Assembly: GCA_902801625.1 (NCBI GenBank) | Contig: CADCJI010000010.1 | Span: 1-64,000 of the forward strand | Reading direction: 5' to 3' | DNA: 64,000 nt | From: an uncultured Bacteroidia bacterium | GTDB lineage: Bacteria > Bacteroidota > Bacteroidia > Bacteroidales > F082 | Position numbers and translations under genes: made by a program | Notes under the pieces: model-generated | Told to the model about the DNA's origin: nothing | What the model saw: only the letters and a program-made list of their open reading frames with translations | Database searches by the model: none | Part shown: positions 18,407-30,466 of the stretch, piece by piece | Layout: every line of letters begins with the position of its first letter | How positions within the stretch are numbered: position 1 is the first letter of the stretch

Positions 18407-20245
18407 CTATCTTTTATTAAACACAAATCCCCTCCTCTCCCACTCTGGCATTTCCCGAGCAACGATAATGCTATAGAAACGCTCAAAAGTGTCATCGAAT
18501 TGTCCTACCTTTTCTGCATTCCATCCTCGCTCCGCCACGCCAAGTGCTTTGGGAAGCATCTGATAAGTGGCATCGTCAAAACTTCTTAATTGAGAAGACC
18601 ACAATTGCGCCTGCACGCCAATGATGTCGCCTTTGTAATCTTTGGGATTGAAGGCGAAGGTCTTGCGCTCATCGACATAGCCCGCCCACGACAGACCGAT
18701 TTCTTCAGGAGAATCGCTATAGGCCAAATCCAAATAAGTGTAGGCCGCCGGAGAGAGCACAACAGGGAAGCCTTCGACGCCCTCTGTGTTCCATACGTTG
18801 ATAAAATAAAGCGAGTTTTTGAGTCTCTCTTGTGTTTCAGGCTCCAACCCTTTGGCGATGTCTTCCCAACCTGCCAGGCGTATGCCGCGTGCTTCGGCGA
18901 GATCGAGCATACCCTTGATGAAGGTTTCCTTCATTTCGTGGCGGTCATGGCCCGACCACGCGCCATCGGGCACCTCGTCGCCACCGATATGGATGGCAGG
19001 AAGAGGAACGCCCGCTTCCTTATGCAAACGGATGACCTCGTCGAAAACAGCACCGTAAAACTTGTAAACACTCGGCAGATAGACGCTCAACACATTATCC
19101 GTGAAGTCCTGTGCCGACCAGTAACGCGAAGTGTCGGCAGGGTCCTGCAGGCGGAAACTGCTGTCGCCCGTGCGCCGCTCGTAGGCCTGCATCGCCTTGA
19201 TGGAAGCCCGAGAATGACCCGGCATGTCGAATTCGGGAATCACCCTGATGCGGCGATCCCAAGCATAGCGGAGAATCCGTTGGTATTCCTCGGCAGTATA
19301 AAAAGAGGTGTTGCCGATTTTTCCATTGGCGGATGGCTTTAACGCGCAGGTTTCCTGCAAATTCCAATCAGGCAGCGCATGGTGGGCCCCAAAATCGGTC
19401 AGTTCCGGAAAATCCTTGATTTCCAGACACCAAGATTCGTCATCGGCAATATGGAAATGCAGTGTATTGAGTTTCCACGAGGCCATCAGATCTATGATTT
19501 CGAGCACCTCGTCCACCGTGCGGAAGTCGCGCACCACATCGAGCATAAAGCCACGGTAAGCGTAATCAGGCCAGTCCTCGATGGTCATGGGCGGCAAGGG
19601 GCGCGGCAACTTGGAGAGGGTGATTTGGGCATAGAAAGCGCCATCCTCATCATTGGATTCTACCTTTGGCACTCCATCCTCCCCTATTTTGATGCGATAC
19701 CAACCAGCGGGATGTACAATTGGTGGTGTTTCTGTCTTGGGAGACGTTTCAGGAAACGTCTCTACAGTGGAATCCAAATATTTCACCTGCTTGACTTGAG
19801 GGATGATGTCGGCGGGCTGGACTTCGTATTGATTTGAGGGCCAATCCATCGAATCCTGTTTTTCAGGCAATTTCAAGAAATGGTATTCCACCTCCATCGG
19901 CAGGTCGGGTCTGCCCTGTTGCTGTAGGACGAAGGCCTCGGGCGCCCAGGAATGCCTTGGCAACGGGCGACCGTAATACTTTAAGGTCACCGTTCCGCTT
20001 TCAGGAATGTCGATGTACCATGAGGTTCCCTGATAATGGTTCATCGTGGGTCCCTCCACAGAGGTCTTGCCGTCGAAAAGCTCTTGGAACCACACGCGCG
20101 AGCCTTCGGGCACATCGTGTAGCACAAGGGTATGCAAAGCCCGACCATCGGGCTCTGCTGGGCCTTCAGTCCAATCAGCTGACGGCACACGACTGCATGC
20201 TGCTGCCAAAAGTAAAAATAATATGAACGAGGCGATTTTTCGCAT
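18407..20245 (-). CDS. beta-N-acetylhexosaminidase, GH20, lipoprotein (612 aa)
   Basis: The start at 20245 gives MRKIASFILFLLLAAACS with a lipobox (LAAAC), so the enzyme is probably a lipid-anchored periplasmic or surface glycosidase removing terminal GlcNAc/GalNAc from glycans. A GH20b-like N-terminal domain is followed by the (beta/alpha)8 barrel: YRGFMLDVVRDF, LNTLHFHIADDESW, IPEFDMPGHSRA and the catalytic HIGGDEVPDGAW (Asp-Glu at about 423-424). A REP-like palindrome (19741-19765) is inserted in frame in the linker, encoding roughly VETFPETS. The gene ends convergent with the Fic gene. Confidence 0.92.
   Translation of the reverse strand: MRKIASFILFLLLAAACSRVPSADWTEGPAEPDGRALHTLVLHDVPEGSRVWFQELFDGKTSVEGPTMNHYQGTSWYIDIPESGTVTLKYYGRPLPRHSWAPEAFVLQQQGRPDLPMEVEYHFLKLPEKQDSMDWPSNQYEVQPADIIPQVKQVKYLDSTVETFPETSPKTETPPIVHPAGWYRIKIGEDGVPKVESNDEDGAFYAQITLSKLPRPLPPMTIEDWPDYAYRGFMLDVVRDFRTVDEVLEIIDLMASWKLNTLHFHIADDESWCLEIKDFPELTDFGAHHALPDWNLQETCALKPSANGKIGNTSFYTAEEYQRILRYAWDRRIRVIPEFDMPGHSRASIKAMQAYERRTGDSSFRLQDPADTSRYWSAQDFTDNVLSVYLPSVYKFYGAVFDEVIRLHKEAGVPLPAIHIGGDEVPDGAWSGHDRHEMKETFIKGMLDLAEARGIRLAGWEDIAKGLEPETQERLKNSLYFINVWNTEGVEGFPVVLSPAAYTYLDLAYSDSPEEIGLSWAGYVDERKTFAFNPKDYKGDIIGVQAQLWSSQLRSFDDATYQMLPKALGVAERGWNAEKVGQFDDTFERFYSIIVAREMPEWERRGFVFNKR
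19741..19765. repeat. REP-like palindrome, copy 3, inside the GH20 gene
   Basis: GAGACGTTTC-AG-GAAACGTCTCTAC. The outer arms match the family, the core (TTTCAGGAAA) is unique. It keeps the reading frame. Confidence 0.8.
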
Positions 20246-20253
20246 AACATGTG

Positions 20254-21165
20254 TCAAGAAACCATTTTCTTAGCCACACGCGACGCCAAGCGAGCGTTGT
20301 TCAGCACCAGCTGGATATTCGAAGCGAGGCTGTCGCCACCCGTAAGGTCTTTGATTCGTGCCAATAAATAAGGCGTCGTCTCCTTGCCGTGGATGCCTAA
20401 CCTCTTGGCATCTGCCACGGCCTCGTCGATGGCGCCGTTGATACGGTCGGCATCCATGGAATACTCCTCGGGAATGGGGTTGGTGACCAACATGCCACCA
20501 CCGAGTCCCATCTCCTGCTTGGCGATGAAAGCTTTGGCGACCTCCTCAGGAGTGTCGAGGCGATAATCCACCTTGAAGCCACTCTTGCGGGTGTAGAAAG
20601 CAGGCAGTTCTTCCGTGCCATAGCCGATTACCGGTACGCCCTTGGTCTCGAGATACTCAAGAGTGAGTCCCAGGTCGAGAATCGACTTGGCACCGGCACA
20701 GATGACCATGACGGGAGTGCGAGCCAGCTCCTCCAGGTCGGCAGAGATGTCCATGGTGATCTCTGCACCACGGTGCACGCCGCCCACACCACCTGTGGCA
20801 AACACGCGGATGCCTGCCAAGGCAGCAATGATCATCGTCGTGGCCACCGTGGTGGCGCCATCTTGTCCTCGTGCCACAAGCACGGGCAGGTCACGGCGCG
20901 AGGCCTTGGTGACAGCGGTGCCTTTCTTGCCCAGATATTCAATCTCCGATGGGGTCAAGCCTGCCTTCAGGCGGCCTCCGATGACAGCGATGGTGGCAGG
21001 CACTGCCCCCTCGTCGCGGATGGTCTGCTCCACCCGCAACGCCGTCTCCACATTCTGGGGGTAAGGCATTCCGTGGGATATGATGGTCGATTCGAGAGCC
21101 ACGACGGGCTTCCCGTTTTGCAATGCTTCAGCCACTTCGGGCGAGAGGTCCAAATATTTGTTCAT
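20254..21165 (-). CDS. psuG: pseudouridine-5'-phosphate glycosidase (303 aa)
   Basis: Cytoplasmic enzyme that cleaves pseudouridine 5'-phosphate to uracil and ribose 5-phosphate. The sequence has VALESTIISHGMPYPQN at the N-terminus, ATIAVIGGRLKAGL, FATGGVGGVHRGAE and the lysine-bearing GAKSILDLGLTLEYLET segment of the family, at the usual length. It overlaps the upstream kinase gene by 4 bp, so the two are translationally coupled. Together they form the PsuK-PsuG route for recycling pseudouridine from RNA. Confidence 0.95.
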   Translation of the reverse strand: MNKYLDLSPEVAEALQNGKPVVALESTIISHGMPYPQNVETALRVEQTIRDEGAVPATIAVIGGRLKAGLTPSEIEYLGKKGTAVTKASRRDLPVLVARGQDGATTVATTMIIAALAGIRVFATGGVGGVHRGAEITMDISADLEELARTPVMVICAGAKSILDLGLTLEYLETKGVPVIGYGTEELPAFYTRKSGFKVDYRLDTPEEVAKAFIAKQEMGLGGGMLVTNPIPEEYSMDADRINGAIDEAVADAKRLGIHGKETTPYLLARIKDLTGGDSLASNIQLVLNNARLASRVAKKMVS

Positions 21166-22001
21166 AATTGTTGTTGATTTACGGTATCAGGACTTTCAAT
21201 GTTATGTTTTGCACAAAGCAGGCCGATGTGCGCGGCTTCTGCGATAGTAGCTTCGGGACCTGCATGAATAATGCCGGCCATAAGTGCGTCGCCAGCGCCA
21301 GTGGCATTCACCACATGGCAAGGCAGAGCAGGAAAATGTTGTTTGGTGTTGTCTTCAACAACCTCCAAACCATCCGCTCCGAGGCTGACAAATCTTCTAT
21401 CGACGCCTTGCAAGTCGGCAAGGATGGTGTTTTCGATCTGATTGCATTTCAGCGTGAAGAAACGCTTTTTGACGGACATCGCCATGGCCTCTTTGATTTT
21501 GGCGGCCTTGGCACCCGAAACGGCATCCACATAGAGGGGCTTGTCGGCATGGTCTATCAGATAGGCCAAAGTTTCCACGGGGATGTTGGCATCGGCAACG
21601 AAGGCATCGACATCGCCCAACTGTTCCAACTTTGAGGCCAACCATTCCGGGGAGATGCCCTCGGCGGCAGCCATATCCGCCACGCCACCGACCATCTCGC
21701 CGTCGCAGTCATTGATGCTCAAGAAACAAGAGCGTGCACCCGGGGCGGCATAATCGCAGAGGCTGATGTCGATGTGGGCTTTACGGCAAATCTCGGCAGT
21801 GAAACGACCGAAGTCATCGCCTCCGAACAAGGTCAGGAAGACGACCTCGTCGCCCAACAGCGCCAGGTTATGGGCTATGTTGCGCCCTACCCCACCCGCC
21901 GTCAGGCGCACCGTGCCAGGGTTGGAGTCGCCAGGCACGAAAGCACTGAAGCTCGTGGCGATAATGTCGGCATTCGCTCCGCCGATTACACAGATTCTCA
22001 T
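21162..22001 (-). CDS. psuK: PfkB-family kinase, probably pseudouridine kinase (279 aa)
   Basis: A ribokinase-fold sugar/nucleoside kinase. N-terminal CVIGGANADI, the GGVGRNIAHNLALLG substrate-binding segment and the C-terminal NATGAGDALMAG active-site motif are present. The start at 22001 follows a clear promoter, and the alternative upstream start would add a non-conserved stretch. Overlap with psuG makes pseudouridine the most likely substrate; sequence alone would only say PfkB family. Confidence 0.88.
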   Translation of the reverse strand: MRICVIGGANADIIATSFSAFVPGDSNPGTVRLTAGGVGRNIAHNLALLGDEVVFLTLFGGDDFGRFTAEICRKAHIDISLCDYAAPGARSCFLSINDCDGEMVGGVADMAAAEGISPEWLASKLEQLGDVDAFVADANIPVETLAYLIDHADKPLYVDAVSGAKAAKIKEAMAMSVKKRFFTLKCNQIENTILADLQGVDRRFVSLGADGLEVVEDNTKQHFPALPCHVVNATGAGDALMAGIIHAGPEATIAEAAHIGLLCAKHNIESPDTVNQQQL

Positions 22002-22022
22002 GGTCAAATGCTTTGTTTGGTG

Positions 22023-22053
22023 CAAAAATACGAAAAAGTATAGATTCCACAAA
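22023..22053 (-). promoter_or_regulatory. promoter of psuK-psuG
   Basis: On the minus strand TTTG (22053-22050), 19 bp, then TATTTTTG (22030-22023), 21 bp before the start codon. Confidence 0.78.
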
Positions 22054-22107
22054 TAATTGGGGATGACATATAAGTTTAATAACAACACGCATTTTTTGCA
22101 TGTCAAG

Positions 22108-22138
22108 AGTGGTAAGTGCAAAATTTGCACATACCACT
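22108..22138. repeat. 31-bp palindrome flanked by TGTCAAG direct repeats
   Basis: AGTGGTA-A-GTGCAAA and TTTGCAC-A-TACCACT pair around one base. TGTCAAG stands at 22101-22107 and again at 22142-22148, like a target-site duplication. A second small hairpin, TAACGTG/CACGTTA, follows at 22154-22176. Confidence 0.65.
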
Positions 22139-22510: not shown

Positions 22511-22539
22511 GGATTTTTGATTTTTTAAAGTATTTTATT

Positions 22540-22583
22540 GCCTGTGCATTAATTTGGCACAGGCTCTATTTTTCTTTGCAGCG
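22540..22583 (+). repeat. cassette-boundary module, copy A (hairpin plus -7-like box)
   Basis: GCCTGTGC, 9-nt loop ATTAATTTG, GCACAGGC, then 6 bp and TTTCTTTGCAGCGG. The module recurs at 24610, 26434 and 27494 with the same hairpin-to-box spacing. The hairpin with its T-rich tail may terminate the previous gene, while TTTCTTTGC may serve as the -7 of the next one. Confidence 0.75.
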
Positions 22584-22638
22584 GAAAACGGTCGAATTGA
22601 CAAATATAACAAACTATAAACATCATTAAATCAAAAAT

Positions 22639-23310
22639 ATGGAAAACAACAGATATGCAAGCATCGGTAAAGGCTCAATTGTCGAAGAAGGCGTCTTCGT
22701 AAGATTTCCCGAGCTCGTTCCAGCTTCTTTGGACAATTATTGGAACAGCAAGAAGCATAAAAAGCTGTTGATAGTTGGAGAAAGCAACTACTTTGACGAT
22801 GATGTCGACAGCGTGTTTAAGGACCCAAAAGCGTGGTATTCAGGAGCAGACAAACAACATTTGATACCAGAAGGAAAGAAGAAAGATGTAAGCAACTACA
22901 AAGGGTATAAGACTTTTGATAGGTTGTGTAAATCCATGAATGAAGTGTTGAACGAAACACTTTGTGAGCACGTCTATGAGGAGGCCATGTTCTATAATTA
23001 TTTTCTGCGTCCGGCCACGGTGAGGAAAAACAATAAATCATTCAAAAAAGACTGCACCCAATTAGACCGTGATGTGGCTGGCAGCGCATTATGTGGAATT
23101 ATCGACCTTGACCGTCCTGATGTAGTTATATTTGTCAGTAAATATGCACACTTGGAATTTAGGAAGTACATGGAATCGAATGGATTGTCATATAATATCC
23201 CGATTGATTTCGTCAATCATCCTGCACATCCTGCCTCATGGCATCACAGAAATGGAAACGGGAAACAGAAGTTCGAAAGACTATTGAGGGAATACTGGAT
23301 GGTAAAATAA
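22639..23310 (+). CDS. uncharacterised protein with uracil-DNA-glycosylase-like features (223 aa)
   Basis: No family is recognised with certainty. The layout KKLLIVGESNYFDDD near residue 45, a hydrophobic VVIFVSKYAHLEF strand late in the chain, and NHPAHPASWHHRNGNGKQKF near the C-terminus resembles the motif order of the uracil-DNA-glycosylase superfamily (G-E-x-N early, a strand, then a histidine-containing HP motif). Classical catalytic residues are not clear, so enzymatic activity is unproven. It is the first gene of the cassette between modules A and B, with relatively AT-rich codon use. Confidence 0.5.
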   Translation: MENNRYASIGKGSIVEEGVFVRFPELVPASLDNYWNSKKHKKLLIVGESNYFDDDVDSVFKDPKAWYSGADKQHLIPEGKKKDVSNYKGYKTFDRLCKSMNEVLNETLCEHVYEEAMFYNYFLRPATVRKNNKSFKKDCTQLDRDVAGSALCGIIDLDRPDVVIFVSKYAHLEFRKYMESNGLSYNIPIDFVNHPAHPASWHHRNGNGKQKFERLLREYWMVK

Positions 23311-23350
23311 TCACATTTTTATCAACCCCTGTATGTTTCATAGAAATGTT

Positions 23351-23358
23351 TACCTTTG
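23351..23358 (+). promoter_or_regulatory. -7 box before the triple zinc-ribbon gene
   Basis: TACCTTTG followed by CTGC, 56 bp before the chosen start. No clear -33. Confidence 0.5.
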
Positions 23359-23414
23359 CTGCAAATATCATCTTGGCATTGTGCCTACAAGTGCAAAACC
23401 CGAACTGGCCGCCC

Positions 23415-23759
23415 ATGAAAAACTATCAATGCAAGAAATGTGGCATTCTGATTAAAACAGAGCGACAGCCCAATGCGTTCAATTGTCGGGTTGGAAACTA
23501 CCACGATTGGAACGACCTCGGCGAAGTCGGCTGCGAGAACTACCGATGCAAGAAATGCGGTCTTCTCGTCGAAAGCAAGAGCACCCCATCTTCTTTTGGA
23601 TGCACTGCTGGAGGCTACCACAATTGGCAAGATTTATGTCCGATAGGCACCGATGTCTATCAATGCAAGAAGTGTGGCATTCTGTTGTATGCCTCAAAGT
23701 CACCCAATGAATTTGACTGCCCTTCGGGAGGGTATCATCAATGGAATAAGATGAACTAA
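23415..23759 (+). CDS. protein of three tandem zinc-ribbon-like repeats (114 aa)
   Basis: Three repeats of about 35-40 residues follow the pattern CKKCGxL...PxxFxCxxGxYHxW. Each carries a CxxC pair plus a later Cys and His, which could bind one zinc ion. The ATG at 23415 begins exactly at the first repeat (MKNYQCKKCG), whereas upstream in-frame codons run back over the previous gene. No enzymatic domain is present, so a nucleic-acid or protein-binding role is the most one can infer. It lies between the two glycosylase-fold-like genes. Confidence 0.65.
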   Translation: MKNYQCKKCGILIKTERQPNAFNCRVGNYHDWNDLGEVGCENYRCKKCGLLVESKSTPSSFGCTAGGYHNWQDLCPIGTDVYQCKKCGILLYASKSPNEFDCPSGGYHQWNKMN

Positions 23760-23787
23760 ATGGGAATTAAACTCAAAAACATATACA

Positions 23788-24582
23788 ATGATGAACAGCA
23801 ATATCAATTATGAACTTGAGTTTCTCTTCGGCAGATGGTATGAACGAATGGAGAAAACGAATGGAGAAAAAACTTGCTTTACAAAAGACGGGATTTTGTA
23901 TAAAAACGAGTTGTCAGATGATGAAGTGTTAAAAAAATGGAATGATTCATCAAAACGAGTTATGTTTTTGCTGAAAGACCAGAATCAAGAAGGCAAAGAA
24001 AAATGGGATGAAGACATTCGCTATTGGCTCAAAGATGCCGAGTGGGACAAACTTAAAGCCAAAGAAACAAAAGAAAAGAACAGAAATCTTGACAACAAGT
24101 TTTTCAAAAATCTTGCCTATCTCTTTTGGGGGTTATCTAAAGCAACAGCAGATGATGACAATGCTTGGTGGTATAATGAGGTGACAATGCATATCGAAGA
24201 AGTCAAGGCGTTTTTCAACAGCCAACCTTTTGCATTGGTCGAGTGCAAAAAACAACCTGGAGGTGGTTACCTTGACAATAAAGTGCTAGTAGAACATCTA
24301 AACAATTATAAAGACTTATTGGAACGAGAAATTGAGATTATGAGACCCAATATGATAGTTTGCACAAATCATCATATATATGGTACAGTCCTTAATATGA
24401 ACCTATTTCCAAAAAAGGAAGTCGTCAGCGTAAAGGAACATCAACCAGTCAGTTTTCACATACCAACAGGAACTCTGATTTTCTGTTCTTATCATCCCAG
24501 CGACAGAAAAAGTCCAAATGAAATATATGAAGGCGTAATGGACCACTACAGAGCTTTCTTGAAAAGCATTTACAATCTTTAA
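23788..24582 (+). CDS. uncharacterised protein, second glycosylase-fold-like protein (264 aa)
   Basis: The protein starts 28 bp after the zinc-ribbon gene. Segments RVMFLLKDQNQEGKEKW, PNMIVCTNHHIYGTVL and LIFCSYHPSDRKSPNE occur in the order strand-loop, strand, strand-HP motif. This again resembles the uracil-DNA-glycosylase superfamily, where a histidine-proline motif follows the last core strand. The resemblance is distant and the usual early GExPG motif is missing. Lys- and Asn-rich composition and lower GC than the flanking housekeeping genes suggest transfer. Confidence 0.5.
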   Translation: MMNSNINYELEFLFGRWYERMEKTNGEKTCFTKDGILYKNELSDDEVLKKWNDSSKRVMFLLKDQNQEGKEKWDEDIRYWLKDAEWDKLKAKETKEKNRNLDNKFFKNLAYLFWGLSKATADDDNAWWYNEVTMHIEEVKAFFNSQPFALVECKKQPGGGYLDNKVLVEHLNNYKDLLEREIEIMRPNMIVCTNHHIYGTVLNMNLFPKKEVVSVKEHQPVSFHIPTGTLIFCSYHPSDRKSPNEIYEGVMDHYRAFLKSIYNL

Positions 24583-24609
24583 TTGCAGGAATTGATCAAT
24601 TTTTCCTAA

Positions 24610-24653
24610 GCCTGTGCTTCAATTCGGCACAGGCTTTCTTTTTCTTTGCAGCG
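24610..24653 (+). repeat. cassette-boundary module, copy B
   Basis: GCCTGTGC, 8-nt loop, GCACAGGC, 6 bp, TTTCTTTGCAGCG. The stem is perfect. It sits 27 bp after the previous stop and 17 bp before the next start. Confidence 0.75.
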
Positions 24654-24670
24654 TTAAATCGTAACGCATT

Positions 24671-25339
24671 ATGACCATACAAGAAATTTACAACTCACAG
24701 CCCGTCAGGAAGGTGGAATACATGATTCTCGACTGTCAGCGGCAGAGCGAAAAAGGCATGTGGGGCATGGAAACAGGAAGAGTAGCCATCCAAAACCTTT
24801 TGAGCATCAGGAAAACCATCTTGAACGAAATGTTCGTGATGGACGACAATTATTTGCAACTGCTCAAGGACTTCAACGAGGCCATGAAGCAACAGATGAT
24901 AGAGATGCGTAGACGCACAATAGCACTTTATGAGTCGGTGGCCAAAGCAGAATTGCCAGGAACCATCGAAGTGGAGGGCAAATGCCATTTCGGCTACGAC
25001 TATCCTCCTTTGCATCCCATCCAAGACGAACGCGCCCAACGGATGTGGGACATACTAAATGGAACAATCGATAACTTTATTCCTTTGTACCATAACGGAT
25101 TCGGACAATTCCGAATTGACACCTATCATTCCTCTGTCCCAACAATTGAATCCGAACATCAAATGCTATATTTGAGTGAAGAAACGGACAATTGGAACGA
25201 GGGTTTAGACGGAAAACTGACAAAAGACATGCATCTTATATTCGCATTCCACGACCTTTTCGAGCACATGGAATTCGCCATTTTCGACCTCCTTTGGGTG
25301 CGCGACTTTAATATTGAACTGAATGTTGAAATCTCATAA
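24671..25339 (+). CDS. uncharacterised protein, first gene of the FtsZ-like operon (222 aa)
   Basis: A soluble protein with a helical N-terminal half (IRKTILNEMFVMDDNYLQLLKDF..., AMKQQMIEMRRRTIALYES) and a mixed C-terminal half ending in LIFAFHDLFEHMEFAIFDLL-type aromatic sequence. No signal peptide, membrane segment or known domain was recognised. It lies directly behind module B and 13 bp before the FtsZ-like gene, so the three genes to 26446 form one operon. A role as partner or regulator of the FtsZ-like protein is inferred only from this. Confidence 0.6.
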   Translation: MTIQEIYNSQPVRKVEYMILDCQRQSEKGMWGMETGRVAIQNLLSIRKTILNEMFVMDDNYLQLLKDFNEAMKQQMIEMRRRTIALYESVAKAELPGTIEVEGKCHFGYDYPPLHPIQDERAQRMWDILNGTIDNFIPLYHNGFGQFRIDTYHSSVPTIESEHQMLYLSEETDNWNEGLDGKLTKDMHLIFAFHDLFEHMEFAIFDLLWVRDFNIELNVEIS

Positions 25340-25352
25340 CAATACAACGACT

Positions 25353-26015
25353 ATGAACAAAAAAGCAACCTCAACAACAAAGTCAACCGTTAAAGTAATC
25401 GGCATTGGCTGTGGCGGCAACAATATCGTCAACCATATAAGCCAAAGCAATTTGGGAGGTTTCTCCTTTGTGGCCTGCGACATGGATGCCAAGGTGCTTG
25501 AGAAATCAGCAGCCGCCACAACCTTGCAACTTGGCACAGACGGACTTGGAAGCGGCAACAGCCCTGAGAAAGCACGCATCACAGCTGAAGAAAACACAGA
25601 TGCAATAAAGAAACTATTCGATGACAAACCTTCAATGACCTTTGTCGTCACTTGTCTTGGAGGAGGATGCGGCACGGGTGCGGCTCCCGTAATCGCCTGT
25701 GAGTCAAAAAAGATGGGCATCACGACCGTTGTCCTTGCCACTTTGCCATTCGAGTTGGAAGGCGAACGCAGATTCTCGCAAGCCTCGGAAGGAATTCAAA
25801 ACTTGGCAAGAAACACGGATGCCCTCTTCCTGCTCAACAACCAGTATATCAAAGAACAATACTGCGACTTGCCCATAAACCAAGCCTTCGCAAAGGCCGA
25901 TGGCCTGTTGGCGGAAATAGCCAAAAGCCTAATCCGAGCCATAATGGAGCCACAACAAGCGACAAAGAAAACCTCAAGAATAAAGGAGTTTTTCAAAAGA
26001 CTGAAATGCAAATAA
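25353..26015 (+). CDS. truncated FtsZ-like GTPase (220 aa)
   Basis: The protein aligns by eye with the GTP-binding domain of FtsZ: VKVIGIGCGGNNIVNHI (nucleotide loop T1), CDMDAKVLEKSAAATTLQLG, the GLGSGNSPEKAR segment, the tubulin signature GGGCGTGAAP (residues 103-112; FtsZ has GGGTGTGAAP) and LPFELEGERRFSQASEGI. It then stops near residue 200 with a basic tail. The T7 loop (NxDFxD) that completes GTP hydrolysis in the neighbouring subunit, and the whole C-terminal domain, are absent. It can plausibly bind GTP but not form a normal protofilament. It is far shorter than cellular FtsZ (over 300 aa) and sits in an accessory operon. Confidence 0.8.
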   Translation: MNKKATSTTKSTVKVIGIGCGGNNIVNHISQSNLGGFSFVACDMDAKVLEKSAAATTLQLGTDGLGSGNSPEKARITAEENTDAIKKLFDDKPSMTFVVTCLGGGCGTGAAPVIACESKKMGITTVVLATLPFELEGERRFSQASEGIQNLARNTDALFLLNNQYIKEQYCDLPINQAFAKADGLLAEIAKSLIRAIMEPQQATKKTSRIKEFFKRLKCK

Positions 26016-26020
26016 AAGCG

Positions 26021-26446
26021 ATGGCATCGAAAACATTCAACACTGCAACTATCGCCCGTCTGCTCAGTCACGAGGATGAGCATGGCATGGGACGCATTTT
26101 CATGTACGCCTTCGTCAATGAGGTAATACGTCAGAAGAGGCCGTTCTCATTCGATTGTGAATCCGCTCAAGTAAGCCCCAACTTGATGATTGTTGACAAC
26201 CAAGGAAGAAGCATCGCCGTTGAGCAAAGGCGCAATCGGCTTAGTTTAACCCTCAACCACCAACGAAGTGAAACTTCCGCACGCATCGAATACAAAGGCG
26301 AAGCCTATCGCCAAGTCATTCTTGCTTGGCTTATAGCTTGCATCCAGTACACTTCGTTGCAGCCTGAACTTCGCAACAAGCTGACAAGATATGCCAAATC
26401 CATTCAAAGAAGAACTTGGTTTACAAAAGTTTTGCCTGTGCATTAA
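26021..26446 (+). CDS. uncharacterised protein, third gene of the FtsZ-like operon (141 aa)
   Basis: The start at 26021 is 5 bp after the FtsZ-like stop; an ATG at 26006 overlapping that stop would add five residues. The product is basic with alternating strands (FSFDCESAQVSPNLMIVDNQGRSIAV...) and a helical C-terminus (LTRYAKSIQRRTWF). No known domain was recognised. The last codons (LPVH-stop) are encoded by boundary module C, so the gene end and the repeat are fused, which points to joining by recombination. Confidence 0.6.
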   Translation: MASKTFNTATIARLLSHEDEHGMGRIFMYAFVNEVIRQKRPFSFDCESAQVSPNLMIVDNQGRSIAVEQRRNRLSLTLNHQRSETSARIEYKGEAYRQVILAWLIACIQYTSLQPELRNKLTRYAKSIQRRTWFTKVLPVH

Positions 26447-26476
26447 TTTGGCACAATCTTTTTATTATCTTTGCCG
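26434..26476 (+). repeat. cassette-boundary module, copy C
   Basis: GCCTGTGC and loop ATTAATTTG are identical to copy A, but the 3' arm is degraded to GCACAATC. The following box is TATCTTTGCCGC (-7 at 26466-26473). It overlaps the stop codon of the preceding gene. Confidence 0.68.
26466..26473 (+). promoter_or_regulatory. -7 box of the RhuM-Fic gene
   Basis: TATCTTTG, 18 bp before the start codon, within module C. Confidence 0.65.
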
Positions 26477-26491
26477 CATAAAACCAACCTC

Positions 26492-27460
26492 ATGGAAAAC
26501 CAAATCGTCATATACCAAACCGACAACGGTCAAACTGCCATTGATGTCAGGCTGGAAAACGAAACTGTATGGCTTACACAAGCACAGATGGCGATGCTTT
26601 TTCAGAAGGATCAGTCTGTTATTGCACGTCATATCGCCAATGTTTTTAAAGAAGGTGAATTGGATAGAAATAGTAATATGCAAATTTTGCATAATACTCT
26701 TTCCAAGTACAAACCAACCACCATTTACAATCTCGATGTCATCATCTCCGTAGGTTACCGAGTAAAAAGTCAGCGAGGTGTGCAGTTCCGCCAATGGGCC
26801 AACAAAGTGCTGAAAGACTATCTGCTGAAAGGCTACGCCGTGAATGAGAAGATTCGCCGAAACCAAATCGGGGAACTAAGGCAATTGGTGCAAATGGTGG
26901 GTCGGACGCTGCAAAACCAGCCCTTGCTGAAAAACGAAGAGAACCAAGCCTTGTTTGACATTGTTGTGGATTACACCTACGCCCTCGACACGCTTGACGA
27001 TTACGATTATCAACGTTTGGGCGTGAAAGAAACCACGCAAGAAGAGAAGTTCCAAGCAACATACGACAACGCCATGCAAGCCATAGCGGCATTACGCGAG
27101 AAGTTCGGGGGCAGTTCGCTGTTCGGCAATGAAAAAGACGACTCTTTCAAAAGCAGTATTGGTCAAATCTATCAGACTTTTGGAGGTGAAGACTTATATC
27201 CGAGCGTGGAAGAGAAAGCGGCCATGCTGCTGTATCTCGTCACCAAAAACCATTCGTTCAGCGACGGCAACAAACGCATTGCTGCAACGCTGTTCCTATG
27301 GTTCCTCAACAACAACGGCATCCTCTACCGCGAGGACGGCAGCAAACGTATTGCCGACAACACCTTGGTAGCACTGACCTTGATGATCGCCGAGAGCAAA
27401 CCTGAGGAGAAGGATGTAATGGTGAAGGTGGTGGTGAACTTGATTAATCAGAAGAATTGA
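26492..27460 (+). CDS. RhuM family protein with C-terminal Fic/Doc domain (322 aa)
   Basis: The N-terminal half is the RhuM (virulence RhuM) domain, with VWLTQAQMAMLFQKDQSVIA, a DNA-binding-like segment, and YNLDVIISVGYRVKSQRGVQFR. The C-terminal half is a Doc-like Fic domain with the active site HSFSDGNKRIAA (His254), whose HxFxDGNKR form is complete and would support nucleotide or phosphate transfer. The start at 26492 follows the -7 box in module C. The architecture is common in Bacteroidota accessory regions. The cellular target is unknown, and no separate antitoxin stands next to it. Confidence 0.88.
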   Translation: MENQIVIYQTDNGQTAIDVRLENETVWLTQAQMAMLFQKDQSVIARHIANVFKEGELDRNSNMQILHNTLSKYKPTTIYNLDVIISVGYRVKSQRGVQFRQWANKVLKDYLLKGYAVNEKIRRNQIGELRQLVQMVGRTLQNQPLLKNEENQALFDIVVDYTYALDTLDDYDYQRLGVKETTQEEKFQATYDNAMQAIAALREKFGGSSLFGNEKDDSFKSSIGQIYQTFGGEDLYPSVEEKAAMLLYLVTKNHSFSDGNKRIAATLFLWFLNNNGILYREDGSKRIADNTLVALTLMIAESKPEEKDVMVKVVVNLINQKN

Positions 27461-27493
27461 TTTATTGAGCATAATAACTGCATAATTTTTCAA

Positions 27494-27538
27494 GCATGTG
27501 CTGTGATTTGGCACAAGCTTTTGTTTTCTTTGCAGCGG
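27494..27538 (+). repeat. cassette-boundary module, copy D
   Basis: GCATGTGC, 8-nt loop ending ATTTG, GCACAAGC (one mismatch pair), 6 bp, TTTCTTTGCAGCGG. It stands 33 bp after RhuM-Fic and 20 bp before the next start. Confidence 0.72.
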
Positions 27539-27558
27539 AAAACTAAAACGCTAAAGTT

Positions 27559-28113
27559 ATGTATAATGCACCCTATCACGTCCCCTTAAAGGAATATGAA
27601 GGAATGATGGCCAACCGAGAGTATTGGGACGACCTCGGAGCCGAATGGAATTGGAGTTCGATGGAGAAAAAGTTGGTGCGTCTTGCCGGTTTCGTACAAC
27701 AAGGCGGGAGTTTGAAGAAAGTCCTTGCCCGCTACACCAAAGACCGAGACGAAGAATACACCAATCGCATCCAATTTTGTGTCTTGGAGTATATCTTGAA
27801 ACTCATGGTCGGCAATCGGATAAAGCCATACGAAAAGGTTCCTTTGGTTGACCGCATCAAGCGGCTGAACAAGGACGAACTTGTGGAACTGCTCACGAAG
27901 GAATTGAAACGGGATGTGGTGCCAAGTAGCGAGATGGACAAAAACCACAAATTCCACGAGCATTGGAGACTGCTTTCAGATGACGAATGGTTGAGTGATG
28001 AAATTCTCGACAAGATTGAGTACCGGCATTGGCACAAACACCCCGAAGAGCCTTTCAGCCAATATTTGAGACGGTCGGAGTTTTGGTGGGATTATCGGCA
28101 TTTTTTATGGTGA
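27559..28113 (+). CDS. uncharacterised protein (184 aa)
   Basis: A soluble, strongly charged protein rich in Trp, Tyr and Lys/Arg (YWDDLGAEWNWSSMEKKLVRL, LLTKELKRDVVPSSEMDK, HWHKHPEEPFSQYLRR, ending FWWDYRHFLW). No domain, signal peptide or membrane segment was recognised. It is the last unit behind a boundary module. The following gene has its own promoter and no hairpin module in front. Confidence 0.6.
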   Translation: MYNAPYHVPLKEYEGMMANREYWDDLGAEWNWSSMEKKLVRLAGFVQQGGSLKKVLARYTKDRDEEYTNRIQFCVLEYILKLMVGNRIKPYEKVPLVDRIKRLNKDELVELLTKELKRDVVPSSEMDKNHKFHEHWRLLSDDEWLSDEILDKIEYRHWHKHPEEPFSQYLRRSEFWWDYRHFLW

Positions 28114-28166: not shown

Positions 28167-29060
28167 ATGAACAAACAAATCATTATCACAATTCAAGAAT
28201 TACTTAAAGGTAGAGATAGAAACTCTGATTTTGATTCAGCAGTGGAAAAGAGAATAAAACTGGTTAGGCATAGTGGGGTTATCCGCGAAGATAGCGTGAT
28301 TGGCAAAGATTACTATGGCCAATCTGTTTATGAACTTTACCGTTCAAATTATCCAAAGTTTTTGGAATGGCAATGTGAACAAAATGAAAACAAAATGAAA
28401 AATGTTGATTACATCGTGGCGTTTATAGGAGAGGAACAATGCATGTGCCGCTTTGCTGGAGTTTACAGAAACTATGGGCCAAAACATAAAACATTGTGCG
28501 GTATGTTCTATGATTTGAAAGAAGTTGATGGTTTCGAAATTTTGAAAAACCAAGTTGTAATTGATTGGGGGAAAGGCACTTTGCAATGGATGCAGAATTG
28601 GTCAACAATGAAAGAAGTTGTTCGAATAGACCAAGTGTCTGACAATGAAGGAATCCCATATTTTACTAGGTATGAAGATGTTTCGCTAAATTATTCTCAA
28701 TTAAAGCAAGTGGTTGCAGATAACGAATGGAAAACAAAACTTGAAGCATGTAATTGCGTTTATGTAATTACCGACAAAAGCAATGGAAAGCAATATGTTG
28801 GAGTGACTTATAAAGGTTCAAAGGCTGGTGCTAAAGGCGGAATTTTAAGTAGATGGACAGAATATGCTAACTCGGGTCACGGTGAAGATGTGTCGTTGAA
28901 AAAACTTTGTGAAGGAGATTCAAATTATGCAGAGGAGAATTTCCAATGGTCAATATTAGAAACATTACCACTAAGTGTCATACCAGCAATCGCAATCAAC
29001 ATAGAGACGAAGTGGAAGGAGAAACTAATGACCAAAGTGTTTGGCTATAACAATAATTAA
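28167..29060 (+). CDS. GIY-YIG nuclease-domain protein (297 aa)
   Basis: The C-terminal third (from about residue 195) has NCVYVITDKSNGKQYVGVTY, then a later GILSRWTEYANSG with an arginine and a glutamate in IETKWKEKL, matching the GIY-YIG endonuclease order Y-V-I / Y-V-G, Arg, Glu. The first about 190 residues are not recognised and may set the target. The start at 28167 is fixed by the Shine-Dalgarno and promoter; the longer upstream frame overlaps the previous gene. Codon use is AT-rich compared with the flanking WYL gene. A stand-alone nuclease or phage-defence role is possible, not shown. Confidence 0.75.
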   Translation: MNKQIIITIQELLKGRDRNSDFDSAVEKRIKLVRHSGVIREDSVIGKDYYGQSVYELYRSNYPKFLEWQCEQNENKMKNVDYIVAFIGEEQCMCRFAGVYRNYGPKHKTLCGMFYDLKEVDGFEILKNQVVIDWGKGTLQWMQNWSTMKEVVRIDQVSDNEGIPYFTRYEDVSLNYSQLKQVVADNEWKTKLEACNCVYVITDKSNGKQYVGVTYKGSKAGAKGGILSRWTEYANSGHGEDVSLKKLCEGDSNYAEENFQWSILETLPLSVIPAIAINIETKWKEKLMTKVFGYNNN

Positions 29061-29066
29061 TTCTTC

Positions 29067-29975
29067 ATGTCCAAAAACCAAATCAACAAATACGTCTGGC
29101 TCGTAGAGACGCTTTACCATGCCAAGAAAATCACGCTGAAGGAAATCAACCGCAGGTGGCTCGACACCGATTTGAGCGAAGGCCTGGAGATTCCGCGCCG
29201 CACGTTTCACACCTGGAAAAACGCGGTGGAAGAGATGTTCGGCCTCGTCATTATGTGCGACAAGAGCGACGGCGACCGCTATTACATCGAAAACCGCGAG
29301 GTGCTGGAGGACGATGGCCTGCAACGCTGGCTGCTCAGCACCATGTCGGTCAACAACACACTGTTGGACAACAAAGCCCTCAGCGACCGCATCCTGTTGG
29401 AAAGCATCCCCTCGGGACAAGACTTCCTCGCCACGGTCATGGAAGCGATGAAGAAAAACCGATTGCTGGAAATCACCTATAAAGGCTTTTGGAGCGAAAG
29501 CGAGCACACATTTCCCGTAGCGCCCTATTGCGTGAAGCTGTTCCGGCAGCGGTGGTACATGGTGGGCAACAGCGTCTACGAAGACAAGATCCGCATCTAT
29601 TCCCTAGATCGCGTACTGGAAGCCCAATTGTCGGAGAAGACCTTCAAATACCCCAAGAAATTCAACCCAGAGAACTATTTCAAAGGCTGTTTCGGCATCA
29701 TCCGTGACAAGGAATGTCCCATCGAGACCGTGAAGCTGAAAGTGAGCGCCGACCAAGCCAACTACCTGCGCTCCTTGCCGTTGCATCCTTCACAAAAGGA
29801 GCTGGTGCATACAGGCGAATACAGCATCTTCTCCGTCGAGGTGCGCCCCACTTTCGACTTCCAGCAAGAACTCCTCTGGAACGGCGATGCGCTTGAAGTG
29901 TTGGAGCCGCTATGGCTGCGCAAGGAAATGGCGGAGATGGTGAAACGGATGTGGAACAATTACAGCAAGAAATGA
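29067..29975 (+). CDS. WYL domain transcriptional regulator (302 aa)
   Basis: The N-terminal part looks like a winged helix (KYVWLVETLYHAKKITLKEINRRW). The central part has the WYL-type core with LEITYKGFWSESEHTFPVAPYCVKLFRQRWYMVG and IRIYSLDRVLEA, followed by the C-terminal WCX-like segment (VKLKVSADQANYLRSLPLHPSQ). Such proteins bind DNA and sense nucleic-acid or nucleotide ligands, and they often regulate DNA-repair or defence genes. It overlaps the exonuclease gene by 4 bp and follows the GIY-YIG gene by 6 bp, so it could control this neighbourhood. Confidence 0.88.
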   Translation: MSKNQINKYVWLVETLYHAKKITLKEINRRWLDTDLSEGLEIPRRTFHTWKNAVEEMFGLVIMCDKSDGDRYYIENREVLEDDGLQRWLLSTMSVNNTLLDNKALSDRILLESIPSGQDFLATVMEAMKKNRLLEITYKGFWSESEHTFPVAPYCVKLFRQRWYMVGNSVYEDKIRIYSLDRVLEAQLSEKTFKYPKKFNPENYFKGCFGIIRDKECPIETVKLKVSADQANYLRSLPLHPSQKELVHTGEYSIFSVEVRPTFDFQQELLWNGDALEVLEPLWLRKEMAEMVKRMWNNYSKK

Positions 29976-30466
29976 ACTCCTTCGCCGCCATAGACTTCGA
30001 GACCGCCAACAACGAACGCACCAGCGTGTGTAGCGTGGGCGTGGTGATTGTAAAAGAAGGCGAGTTTGTGGACTCGTTCTATTCCCTAATTCAACCGGAG
30101 CCGAATTATTATTTGTATTGGAACACGCTCGTCCACGGCATCACCAAAGAGGACACCGAGGATGCGCCAGTGTTTCCATACGTCTGGCAAAAAATTGAGC
30201 CACTTATTGAGGGTCTGCCTCTCGTAGCGCACAATAGTCCATTCGATGAAGGCTGCCTGAAGGCCGTGATGCGATGCTACCAGATGGATTACCCTGACTA
30301 TCAGTTCTACTGCACCTGTCGCGCCGCGCGCAAACACTTCGGGAAGCAGCTTCCCAACCACCAACTGCATACCGTGGCGGCAGCCTGCGGCTTCGATTTG
30401 GTCAACCACCATAACGCCCTGGCCGATGCCGAGGCTTGCGCTTGGATTGCTCGCGAGATTTTGTAA
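29972..30466 (+). CDS. DnaQ-like 3'-5' exonuclease (164 aa)
   Basis: A DEDDh exonuclease domain with almost nothing else: FAAIDFETAN (ExoI, Asp-Glu), LPLVAHNSPFDEGCL (ExoII) and HNALADAEACA (ExoIII, His and Asp). It matches the epsilon/RNase T type that degrades single-stranded DNA or RNA from the 3' end. The start at 29972 overlaps the WYL stop in an ATGA junction, showing translational coupling; a longer upstream frame is just read-through of the WYL gene. Confidence 0.88.
   Translation: MNSFAAIDFETANNERTSVCSVGVVIVKEGEFVDSFYSLIQPEPNYYLYWNTLVHGITKEDTEDAPVFPYVWQKIEPLIEGLPLVAHNSPFDEGCLKAVMRCYQMDYPDYQFYCTCRAARKHFGKQLPNHQLHTVAAACGFDLVNHHNALADAEACAWIAREIL

Follow-up and report, generated by a model that had tools for sequence, protein, structure and literature searches.

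Exchangeable defence-rich gene cassettes behind a common module, a predicted WYL operator-promoter, in a genus of Bacteroidales

Modules and cassettes at the locus

A repeated DNA module was investigated in a stretch of 64,000 nucleotides (the window) from an uncultured Bacteroidia bacterium of the lineage F082 (contig CADCJI010000010.1, positions 1 to 64,000). In the window the module was found four times as a direct repeat (copies A-D at 22533-22589, 24603-24659, 26427-26483 and 27487-27543; n=4, repeat search). Each copy leads into one or more genes, here called a cassette, and the last cassette ends with the gene of F0, a transcription factor with winged helix-turn-helix (wHTH), WYL and WCX domains. 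Protein families, loci, genomes and contigs are cited by handles beginning with F, L, G and C. The array and its variable content, exchange bounded by the module, co-variation of a dyad in the module with the regulator and two classes of promoter were observed here. Taken together these observations make it probable, as judged from sequence, that the locus is a defence regulon under a single regulator, the array of which would have grown by exchange at a common operator-promoter.

The hairpins of the four copies start at 22540, 24610, 26434 and 27494, as an initial annotation of the window had stated. Of the loop size of 8-9 nt given there the larger value held, since the loop measures 9 nt in each of copies A-D, and the preceding open reading frame (ORF; 26006-26446) indeed ends inside copy C, as had been claimed. 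The hairpin arms of A and B are perfect over 8 bp, those of D read GCATGTGC/GCACAAGC and those of C GCCTGTGC/GCACAATC, with TATCTTTGCCGCA sitting one base further away. The constant part of the module is a 19-bp dyad, TRTGC-N9-GCAYA, followed after 9-10 bp by a Bacteroidota -7 box, for which the consensus TAnnTTTG is described (PMC7366714; statements on published work refer to excerpts of the cited papers). The module consensus is AAGCCTGTGCTTCAATTCGGCACAGGCTTTTGTTTTCTTTGCAGCGTxAAAA, with little information in the flanking sequence. The full search pattern (TGTGC-N4-ATTNGGCACA-NNCT-...-TCTTTGC, at most 3 mismatches) matched three times in the window versus 0 in each of 100 shuffles. Across the whole genome (3.58 Mb, 84% complete) it matched six times: besides the three sites in the window, contig C11 has two and C23 one, with 0 in the reversed control. 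Copy C, a diverged fourth copy, was missed by this pattern and was detected by the repeat search and by a profile. The box TTTCTTTGCAGCG alone, with at most 2 mismatches, was not above chance in the window (4 matches vs 2.94 expected).

By pattern, 46 of the 99 genomes of the host genus carry the module, as does one of 74 genomes of the family's other genera, there at 3 mismatches; the reversed-pattern control was 0 in every row. An exact scan of a species-genome collection returned 54 stretches with the module, all titled Bacteroidales or Bacteroidia but for two of bacterium F082, which is listed as Candidatus Alcium sp. F082. The sources named in these titles are goat and yak stomach, and the RUG names among them we take to be rumen assemblies; the genus comprises gut bacteria and is known chiefly from ruminants such as cattle. 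Carriage of the module by phages was not seen and was rejected, as the exact pattern had no match in viral contigs. According to the initial annotation, a module at hundreds of ordinary gene borders, or the same genes, order and modules in all relatives, would speak for a common promoter form rather than a cassette boundary. By pattern the module occurs at most 11 times per genome, by which a common promoter form was rejected, and among relatives both the genes and their order differ.

To describe the arrays, 43 module loci were examined, namely 40 regions picked from the pattern matches in the genus, stretches of C11 and C23, and the window; they were retrieved with a fixed-spacing pattern that left the two leading bases of the -7 box free. 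The main locus has conserved flanks enclosing 2-11 modules, and the intervening gene sets differ and are partly defence-like. The left flank comprises an ABC transporter, a Fic gene, GH20, an indigoidine synthase A-like gene, PfkB and a 107-amino-acid (aa) gene, and the right flank the WYL gene F0, a DEDDh exonuclease, a carbonic anhydrase and an amidohydrolase, some members being absent from some genomes. With joints written as slashes, the order in the window is F16-F13-F23 / F3-F14-F1 / F4 / F5-F35-F0. In G053 (L047) it is F7 / (no plus-strand ORF called) / F11-F18 / F31-F64 / F16-F13-F23 / F40 / F3-F14-F1 / F4-F0, and in G055 (L049) F10 / F7 / F31-F27 / F41-F11-F18 / F0. Eleven modules were counted in G071 (L063, L064), and none of the 43 loci contains a module inverted relative to its own array. 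The four modules of the window are part of a variable cassette array. Further arrays are found near a gene that by eye looks DnaE-like, and at other sites. A second, diverged module array was noted in trans to F0 (L007; G000 contig C11, 1-8000), with genes that by eye encode a MoxR-like ATPase and VWA-like and SprT-like proteins, together with a phospholipase-D-like and a glycosylase-like gene.

The features of the window are collected in Table 1. The 30 proteins analysed with PADLOC comprised 12 of the window, including F0 and F2, and 18 from relatives. Clear matches were obtained for F4 (PDC-S23), F35 (UzuA), F7 (IetA-type AAA), F46 (SspH), F17 (PDC-S26), F33 (AriA/GajA/mad3-type ATPases) and the GmrSD-like F11, F52, F67 and F75 (HEC-05, HEC-06, Orf5 or SspE). 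Weaker matches linked F1 to PDC-S26 and F10 to DrmC; F14 matched a type II restriction enzyme model poorly, and F36 a CARF-AAA-HTH model only weakly. At the thresholds used no PADLOC match was found for F3, F5, F13, F15, F16, F23, F18, F26, F37, F47, F48, F51, F82 and F89. The array is defence-rich, with many genes lacking assignment. The three-gene cassette F3-F14-F1, which contains the FtsZ/tubulin-domain protein F14, recurs in several arrays and may be a new defence operon.

Table 1. Modules, cassette genes and adjoining genes in the window
Feature	Position	Strand	Details
Left edge gene F15, 107 aa	22187..22510	+	adjoins conserved flank genes 18407-22130
Module A	22537..22589	+	dyad core 22543-22561; -7 box TTTCTTTG 22571-22578
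Cassette 1 F16, 223 aa	22639..23310	+	no Pfam match over cut-off, no PADLOC match; family recurs in other arrays
Cassette 1 F13, zinc-ribbon repeats	23238..23759	+	DUF7128, E 1.5e-8
Cassette 1 F23, uracil-DNA-glycosylase-like	23788..24582	+	PF03167 E 2.3e-4, under cut-off
Module B	24607..24659	+	dyad core 24613-24631; -7 box TTTCTTTG 24641-24648
Cassette 2 F3, 222 aa, no assigned function	24671..25339	+	
Cassette 2 F14, tubulin/FtsZ GTPase domain, 230 aa	25323..26015	+	PF00091 E 1.1e-28
Cassette 2 F1, PDDEXK_4-like	26006..26446	+	E 0.0085, under cut-off; PADLOC PDC-S26 E 2e-11; end overlaps module C
Module C, regulator-type	26432..26484	+	dyad core 26437-26455; canonical -7 box TATCTTTG 26466-26473; outer stem unpaired
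Cassette 3 F4, RhuM-Fic	26492..27460	+	PADLOC PDC-S23 E 5.5e-142
Module D	27490..27543	+	dyad core 27497-27515; -7 box TTTCTTTG 27525-27532
Cassette 4 F5, 184 aa, no assigned function	27559..28113	+	
Cassette 4 F35, GIY-YIG-like (under Pfam cut-off)	28167..29060	+	PADLOC UzuA E 6.1e-70
F0, wHTH-WYL-WCX transcription factor, predicted module-dyad reader, array end	29067..29975	+	
Right flank F2, DEDDh/RNase_T exonuclease, often beside F0	29912..30466	+	

F0 and the reading of the dyad

F0 harbors WYL (PF13280, E 1.9e-13) and WCX (PF25583, E 2.4e-12) domains over the cut-off. Its N-terminal wHTH had no Pfam match at E 0.1 and is seen in the predicted model (pLDDT 88.7; helices 3-19, 24-32 and 44-58, strands 62-65 and 71-74). 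Fold matches were obtained to DriD (E 5e-13), CapW (1e-8) and BrxR (1e-7), DriD and PafBC ranking ahead of CapW and BrxR, and the model aligns over its whole length to DriD and BrxR. A phmmer search of F0 against the PDB up to E 0.1 returned DriD and PafBC types, neither BrxR nor CapW. In all 25 array loci with a called F0 ORF, which were chosen for carrying modules, F0 follows the last module, either at once or with same-strand genes in between, and the examined stretch contains no module further downstream. At an identity of at least 74%, F0 was detected in 38 genomes of the genus (some by partial matches), 34 of which carry modules, versus 12 of the other 61 (Fisher p 3.5e-12 over the 99 genomes, ignoring descent). 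At 55% or more, F0 was present in 41 of the 46 module genomes versus 16 of the 53 without a pattern match.

Diverged F0 orthologues (about 58%, 56% and 50% identity) and one group of paralogues carry, in front of their own gene or operon, dyads that have diverged in sequence and kept the plan, and each diverged dyad group is paired with its own recognition helix. The 58-60% group has AACATGTGC-N9-GCACATGTT before operons (helix RKTFNTW) and the 56% pair GGTATGCCCCGATTGGGCATACC 57 bp before F0, with one mismatch in one copy (helix RTFHKW). In the 50% loci (n=5), CTATGCCCACAACGGGCATA or a close variant is located 66 bp before F0 (helix RTFIKW). Five paralogues, whose helix is TTFYRLR or nearly so, carry TGTTTCA-N5-TGAAACA 53-62 bp ahead of their own start. 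Of 26 WYL genes, 13 are preceded by a 7+5+7 dyad with a -7-like box after it, versus 10 of 307 other genes (p 1e-10, the 26 WYL genes being related and not independent). F0 is the most likely reader of the module dyad. Two further WYL paralogues (L240, L241) stand behind a palindrome with 14-bp arms (TTAGGTAGAACTAT...), which are identical between the two genomes while the loop differs.

Among the modules, excluding three without a recognisable box, two promoter classes were distinguished. The consensus A of the -7 box is present in 20 of the 21 modules leading to F0 or the RhuM-Fic gene F4, versus 2 of 123 leading to other first genes, and one of these two exceptions (L055) leads to a partial F0. 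In the window, module C leads to F4, and F0 stands third behind module D, which has a cassette-type promoter. The spacing between dyad and box is 9 bp in 121 of the 123 cassette modules, a count that, like that of core conservation, is biased by the fixed-spacing retrieval pattern. We read this as a regulator promoter that would fire alone and cassette promoters that would need help, as DriD targets do. Activation by F0 is somewhat more likely than repression, because DriD is the nearest fold to F0, the spacing between dyad and box is near constant, and the cassette -7 boxes lack the consensus A that the F0 and RhuM-Fic promoters retain. A repressor of the BrxR/CapW type, with the regulon otherwise as proposed, is a serious contender at clearly less than an even chance. 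In the cases described, the dyads at which BrxR and CapW repress lie close to the promoter, over -35 or -10 (PMC9122589, PMC9122588), the folds of both match F0 too, and a dyad over -33 would suit repression as well; against this, the spacing and the missing A of the cassette modules suit activation, and both folds rank behind DriD.

The initial annotation had taken the hairpin for a terminator shared by the copies. RNA folding gave -14.8, -17.8, -5.3 and -12.2 kcal/mol for A, B, C and D. Against shuffles A (z -4.2), B (z -6.5) and, less so, D (z -2.0) are stable, and C (z -0.84) is no better than shuffled. In 144 distinct modules the arms form 1140 Watson-Crick pairs versus 1132 +/- 4.3 in shuffled arms. 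A conserved RNA hairpin was rejected because arm pairing barely exceeds that of shuffled arms and copy C is unstable, and a conserved terminator is not supported; what is conserved is the dyad and the -7 box, which track the WYL regulator. It is unlikely that the module is a bifunctional terminator-promoter which insulates neighbouring units and has no dedicated regulator. The folding of A, B and D, the T-rich stretch that follows and the tight packing of the cassettes would fit such an element, and these three hairpins, D less so, could terminate transcription too. Regulator-type copies such as C and its relatives, however, retain dyad and box with the outer stem unpaired, and the plan of the 19-bp dyad is kept with other sequences before diverged F0 genes.

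In the genome of the window 17 TRTGC-N9-GCAYA dyads were found, seven of them in modules; the other 10 look like chance, since the reversed control gives 8. Extra operators elsewhere in the genus were sought in 20 regions around looser dyads and rejected: two had no core, and in the rest except L276 the dyad lies inside a long stop-to-stop frame and was taken as chance. In L276 the looser dyad lies between open frames and has a -7-like box.

Exchange at the module

Flank similarity was compared for 147 modules (10,731 pairs): 83 pairs are similar on both sides, 304 upstream only, 475 downstream only and 9,869 on neither. Of the 862 pairs with a common flank 779 match on one side only, and the same module is found with differing genes and order in relatives, which supports the earlier suggestion that gene units were joined at a common module. 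To the left of the hairpin, identity follows the upstream gene; from about the right arm on it follows the downstream gene more strongly, and in loop and spacer it is partly tied to both neighbours. Mosaic triplets, each a module with an upstream and a downstream donor at 90% identity or more, were informative for 33 modules; 113 of 358 triplets fit one clean switch. The switch intervals range across the whole module, with inferred switch points from about -7 to +44 and no fixed crossover base. Since the crossover positions are spread in this way, generic homologous exchange fits better than a single fixed cut.

Of the two mechanisms the initial annotation had offered, homologous recombination thus fits the crossovers, and site-specific recombination finds no support in an integrase over the cut-off or in a single crossover base. 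The IntI model TIGR02249 had no match over the cut-off in the 99 genus genomes, nor in 14 controls, so that this search had no positive control. All five PF00589 matches in the genome of the window lie on contigs other than the three carrying modules. An integron was rejected on the lack of an integrase over the cut-off, the position of these general integrase matches and the spread of switch points.

The distance from the upstream stop codon to the module has a median of only 29 nt, because of which junctions near the module are partly forced. An argument from the ends of homology alone was dropped as weak for these short intergenic gaps; among the upstream-only pairs at 90% identity or more, 4 of 68 have gaps of at least 40 nt in both members.

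The same gene was also compared with and without a module. Among the matches listed for the AAA gene F7 (30 loci), the module lies directly upstream in 19 of 20 homologues with at least 67% identity, and the twentieth (L301) has a diverged dyad instead. Homologues of at most 43% with upstream DNA carry it in 0 of 9 cases, and one more locus, at 46%, had no upstream DNA. For F3 (30 loci examined) the module is directly upstream of all 10 homologues with at least 93% identity. An F7-like AAA gene beside a WYL paralogue was noted on contig C1 of G000 (L311, near 210167-211783); tandem GTGACA-type dyads lie just upstream of a -7-like box there, and the locus may be a further defence operon under WYL control.

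The Y1/HUH-like protein F24, about 367 aa long and bearing a PDHHH motif, is encoded at L008:7856-8959 (G000 contig C23) and also in L134-L147. A dedicated mobile system that recombines at the module, with F24 cutting the hairpins and moving cassettes much as IS200/IS605 or REP-associated transposases do, is distinctly unlikely. For such a role speaks that in 10 of 12 close-family loci with a visible start, broken copies counted, F24 starts divergently 54-80 bp from a module (L134, L136-L141, L143, L147, L161). The gene is broken in L147 and L161, and a remnant in L162 lies 33 bp from the module. Besides the motif, F24 has a weak match to REP_Tyr_transpos (E 4.3e-6; NF047646 26.7 bits vs a cut-off of 80). 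Against it, many arrays, that of the window among them, lack an adjacent F24, two F24 copies stand without a module (L135, L142), the Y1_Tnp match is under the cut-off, crossover points are spread over the module, and module copies are few, none being inverted within an array. In L145 a partial module lies beyond the F24 stop.

An ordinary defence island with a promoter common by descent and no exchange at the module is very improbable: the modules within each array examined all point the same way and some cassettes retain their neighbours, as in the 83 pairs alike on both sides, but the one-sided pairs, the mosaics within the informative modules and unrelated genes bearing the same module speak against it.

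The proposed regulon and known systems

In the regulon proposed here the module would act as the operator-promoter of a single-regulator, inducible defence system built as an array. Each cassette would open with a unit of about 50 bp, in which the 19-bp dyad, usually inside a longer palindrome, is followed 9-10 bp on by the -7 box; placed by the -7 consensus, the dyad would be centred near -33. F0, encoded in the last module-led operon, would bind all copies and thereby control every cassette jointly. The probable trigger would be nucleic acid from phage infection or DNA damage, as for DriD, and new cassettes may gain this control by recombining at the common module.

Besides the retrieval bias and the forced junctions named above, several observations weigh against this regulon. 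The co-occurrence of F0 and module is confounded by descent, and F0 is found at 55% identity or more in 16 of the 53 genomes that lack a pattern match. No F0 at this level was seen in five module genomes (G021, G041, G049, G087, G095); three of the five are less than 80% complete, and in G021 and G049 the contig with the array stops close to a module. In G077, an F0 of 80% identity (L205) has no module by profile in 12.6 kb upstream; this genome, tallied as module-free by pattern, has one module elsewhere by profile (L317). Of the nine loci of the 58-60% group, four have a perfectly palindromic dyad and five an imperfect one, 13 of the 26 WYL genes have no dyad, and the dyad-bearing ones fall in few related groups. 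F3 homologues of 30-51% identity are mixed (n=20), six with an adjacent module, two with one within about 1 kb and 12 with none found, one of these 12 having no upstream DNA.

A more specific proposal, which we make tentatively and hold at somewhat short of an even chance, is that a WYL sensor's own operator-promoter was copied into the joints of a cassette array, so that recombination at a joint would both insert a defence gene and put it under the sensor. Assembly would then be integron-like without an integrase, control and capture would use one 50-bp sequence, and the regulator would have a canonical -7 box and the cassettes a weakened, activator-dependent one. The sequence offers a testable answer on how defence genes cluster and how they switch on, and copies of one module before the units, apparently all under a single sensor at the end of the row, could explain both assembly and joint switching of such islands. 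Any ORF behind a module is predicted to belong to a single inducible defence regulon. By this rule several families, such as F3, F5, F16, F40 and F47/F48, become candidate defence genes.

Among the literature matches listed, no title on a multi-cassette array with one common WYL operator was found. Integron cassettes are bounded by a palindromic repeat, a point in common with the module array. Like chromosomal integrons, which are described as defence biobanks, the locus arrays exchangeable defence cassettes at one site; unlike them it has no integrase over the cut-off, a promoter inside the repeat and crossovers at no single point (PMC12409362). With REP/RAYT systems (PMC2817692) it shares a palindrome beside a Y1-type protein gene, and it differs from them in its few copies (at most 11 per genome), single orientation, promoters before genes and frequent absence of the Y1 protein.

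The BrxR/CapW regulators of BREX, CBASS and defence islands have the same wHTH-WYL-WCX fold, defence neighbours and a palindrome of 19-27 bp near the promoter, the target varying with the DNA-contacting residues (PMC9122601, PMC9122589, PMC9122588). The BrxR operator has 11-bp arms and a 5-bp spacer (PMC9122601), BrxR dyads with this spacer measure 25-27 bp (PMC9122601, PMC9122589), that of Acinetobacter BrxR, 25 bp, lies over -35 (PMC9122589), and CapW is reported at 19-24 bp over -10 (PMC9122588). In these excerpts one or two boxes per locus serve one system or island, whereas here the predicted operator-promoter precedes up to 11 exchangeable cassettes with the regulator last. Closest in fold is Caulobacter DriD, a WYL activator that is activated by single-stranded DNA and binds ATACGAC-N7-GTCGTAT over -35 at a constant distance from -10; a dyad so placed, weak core promoters and several targets would be common to both (PMC12340889). 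The DriD targets named in the same excerpt are genes of the DNA-damage response and of replication and repair, at several promoters, whereas the candidate targets of F0 are clustered, defence-like cassettes joined at the operator itself.

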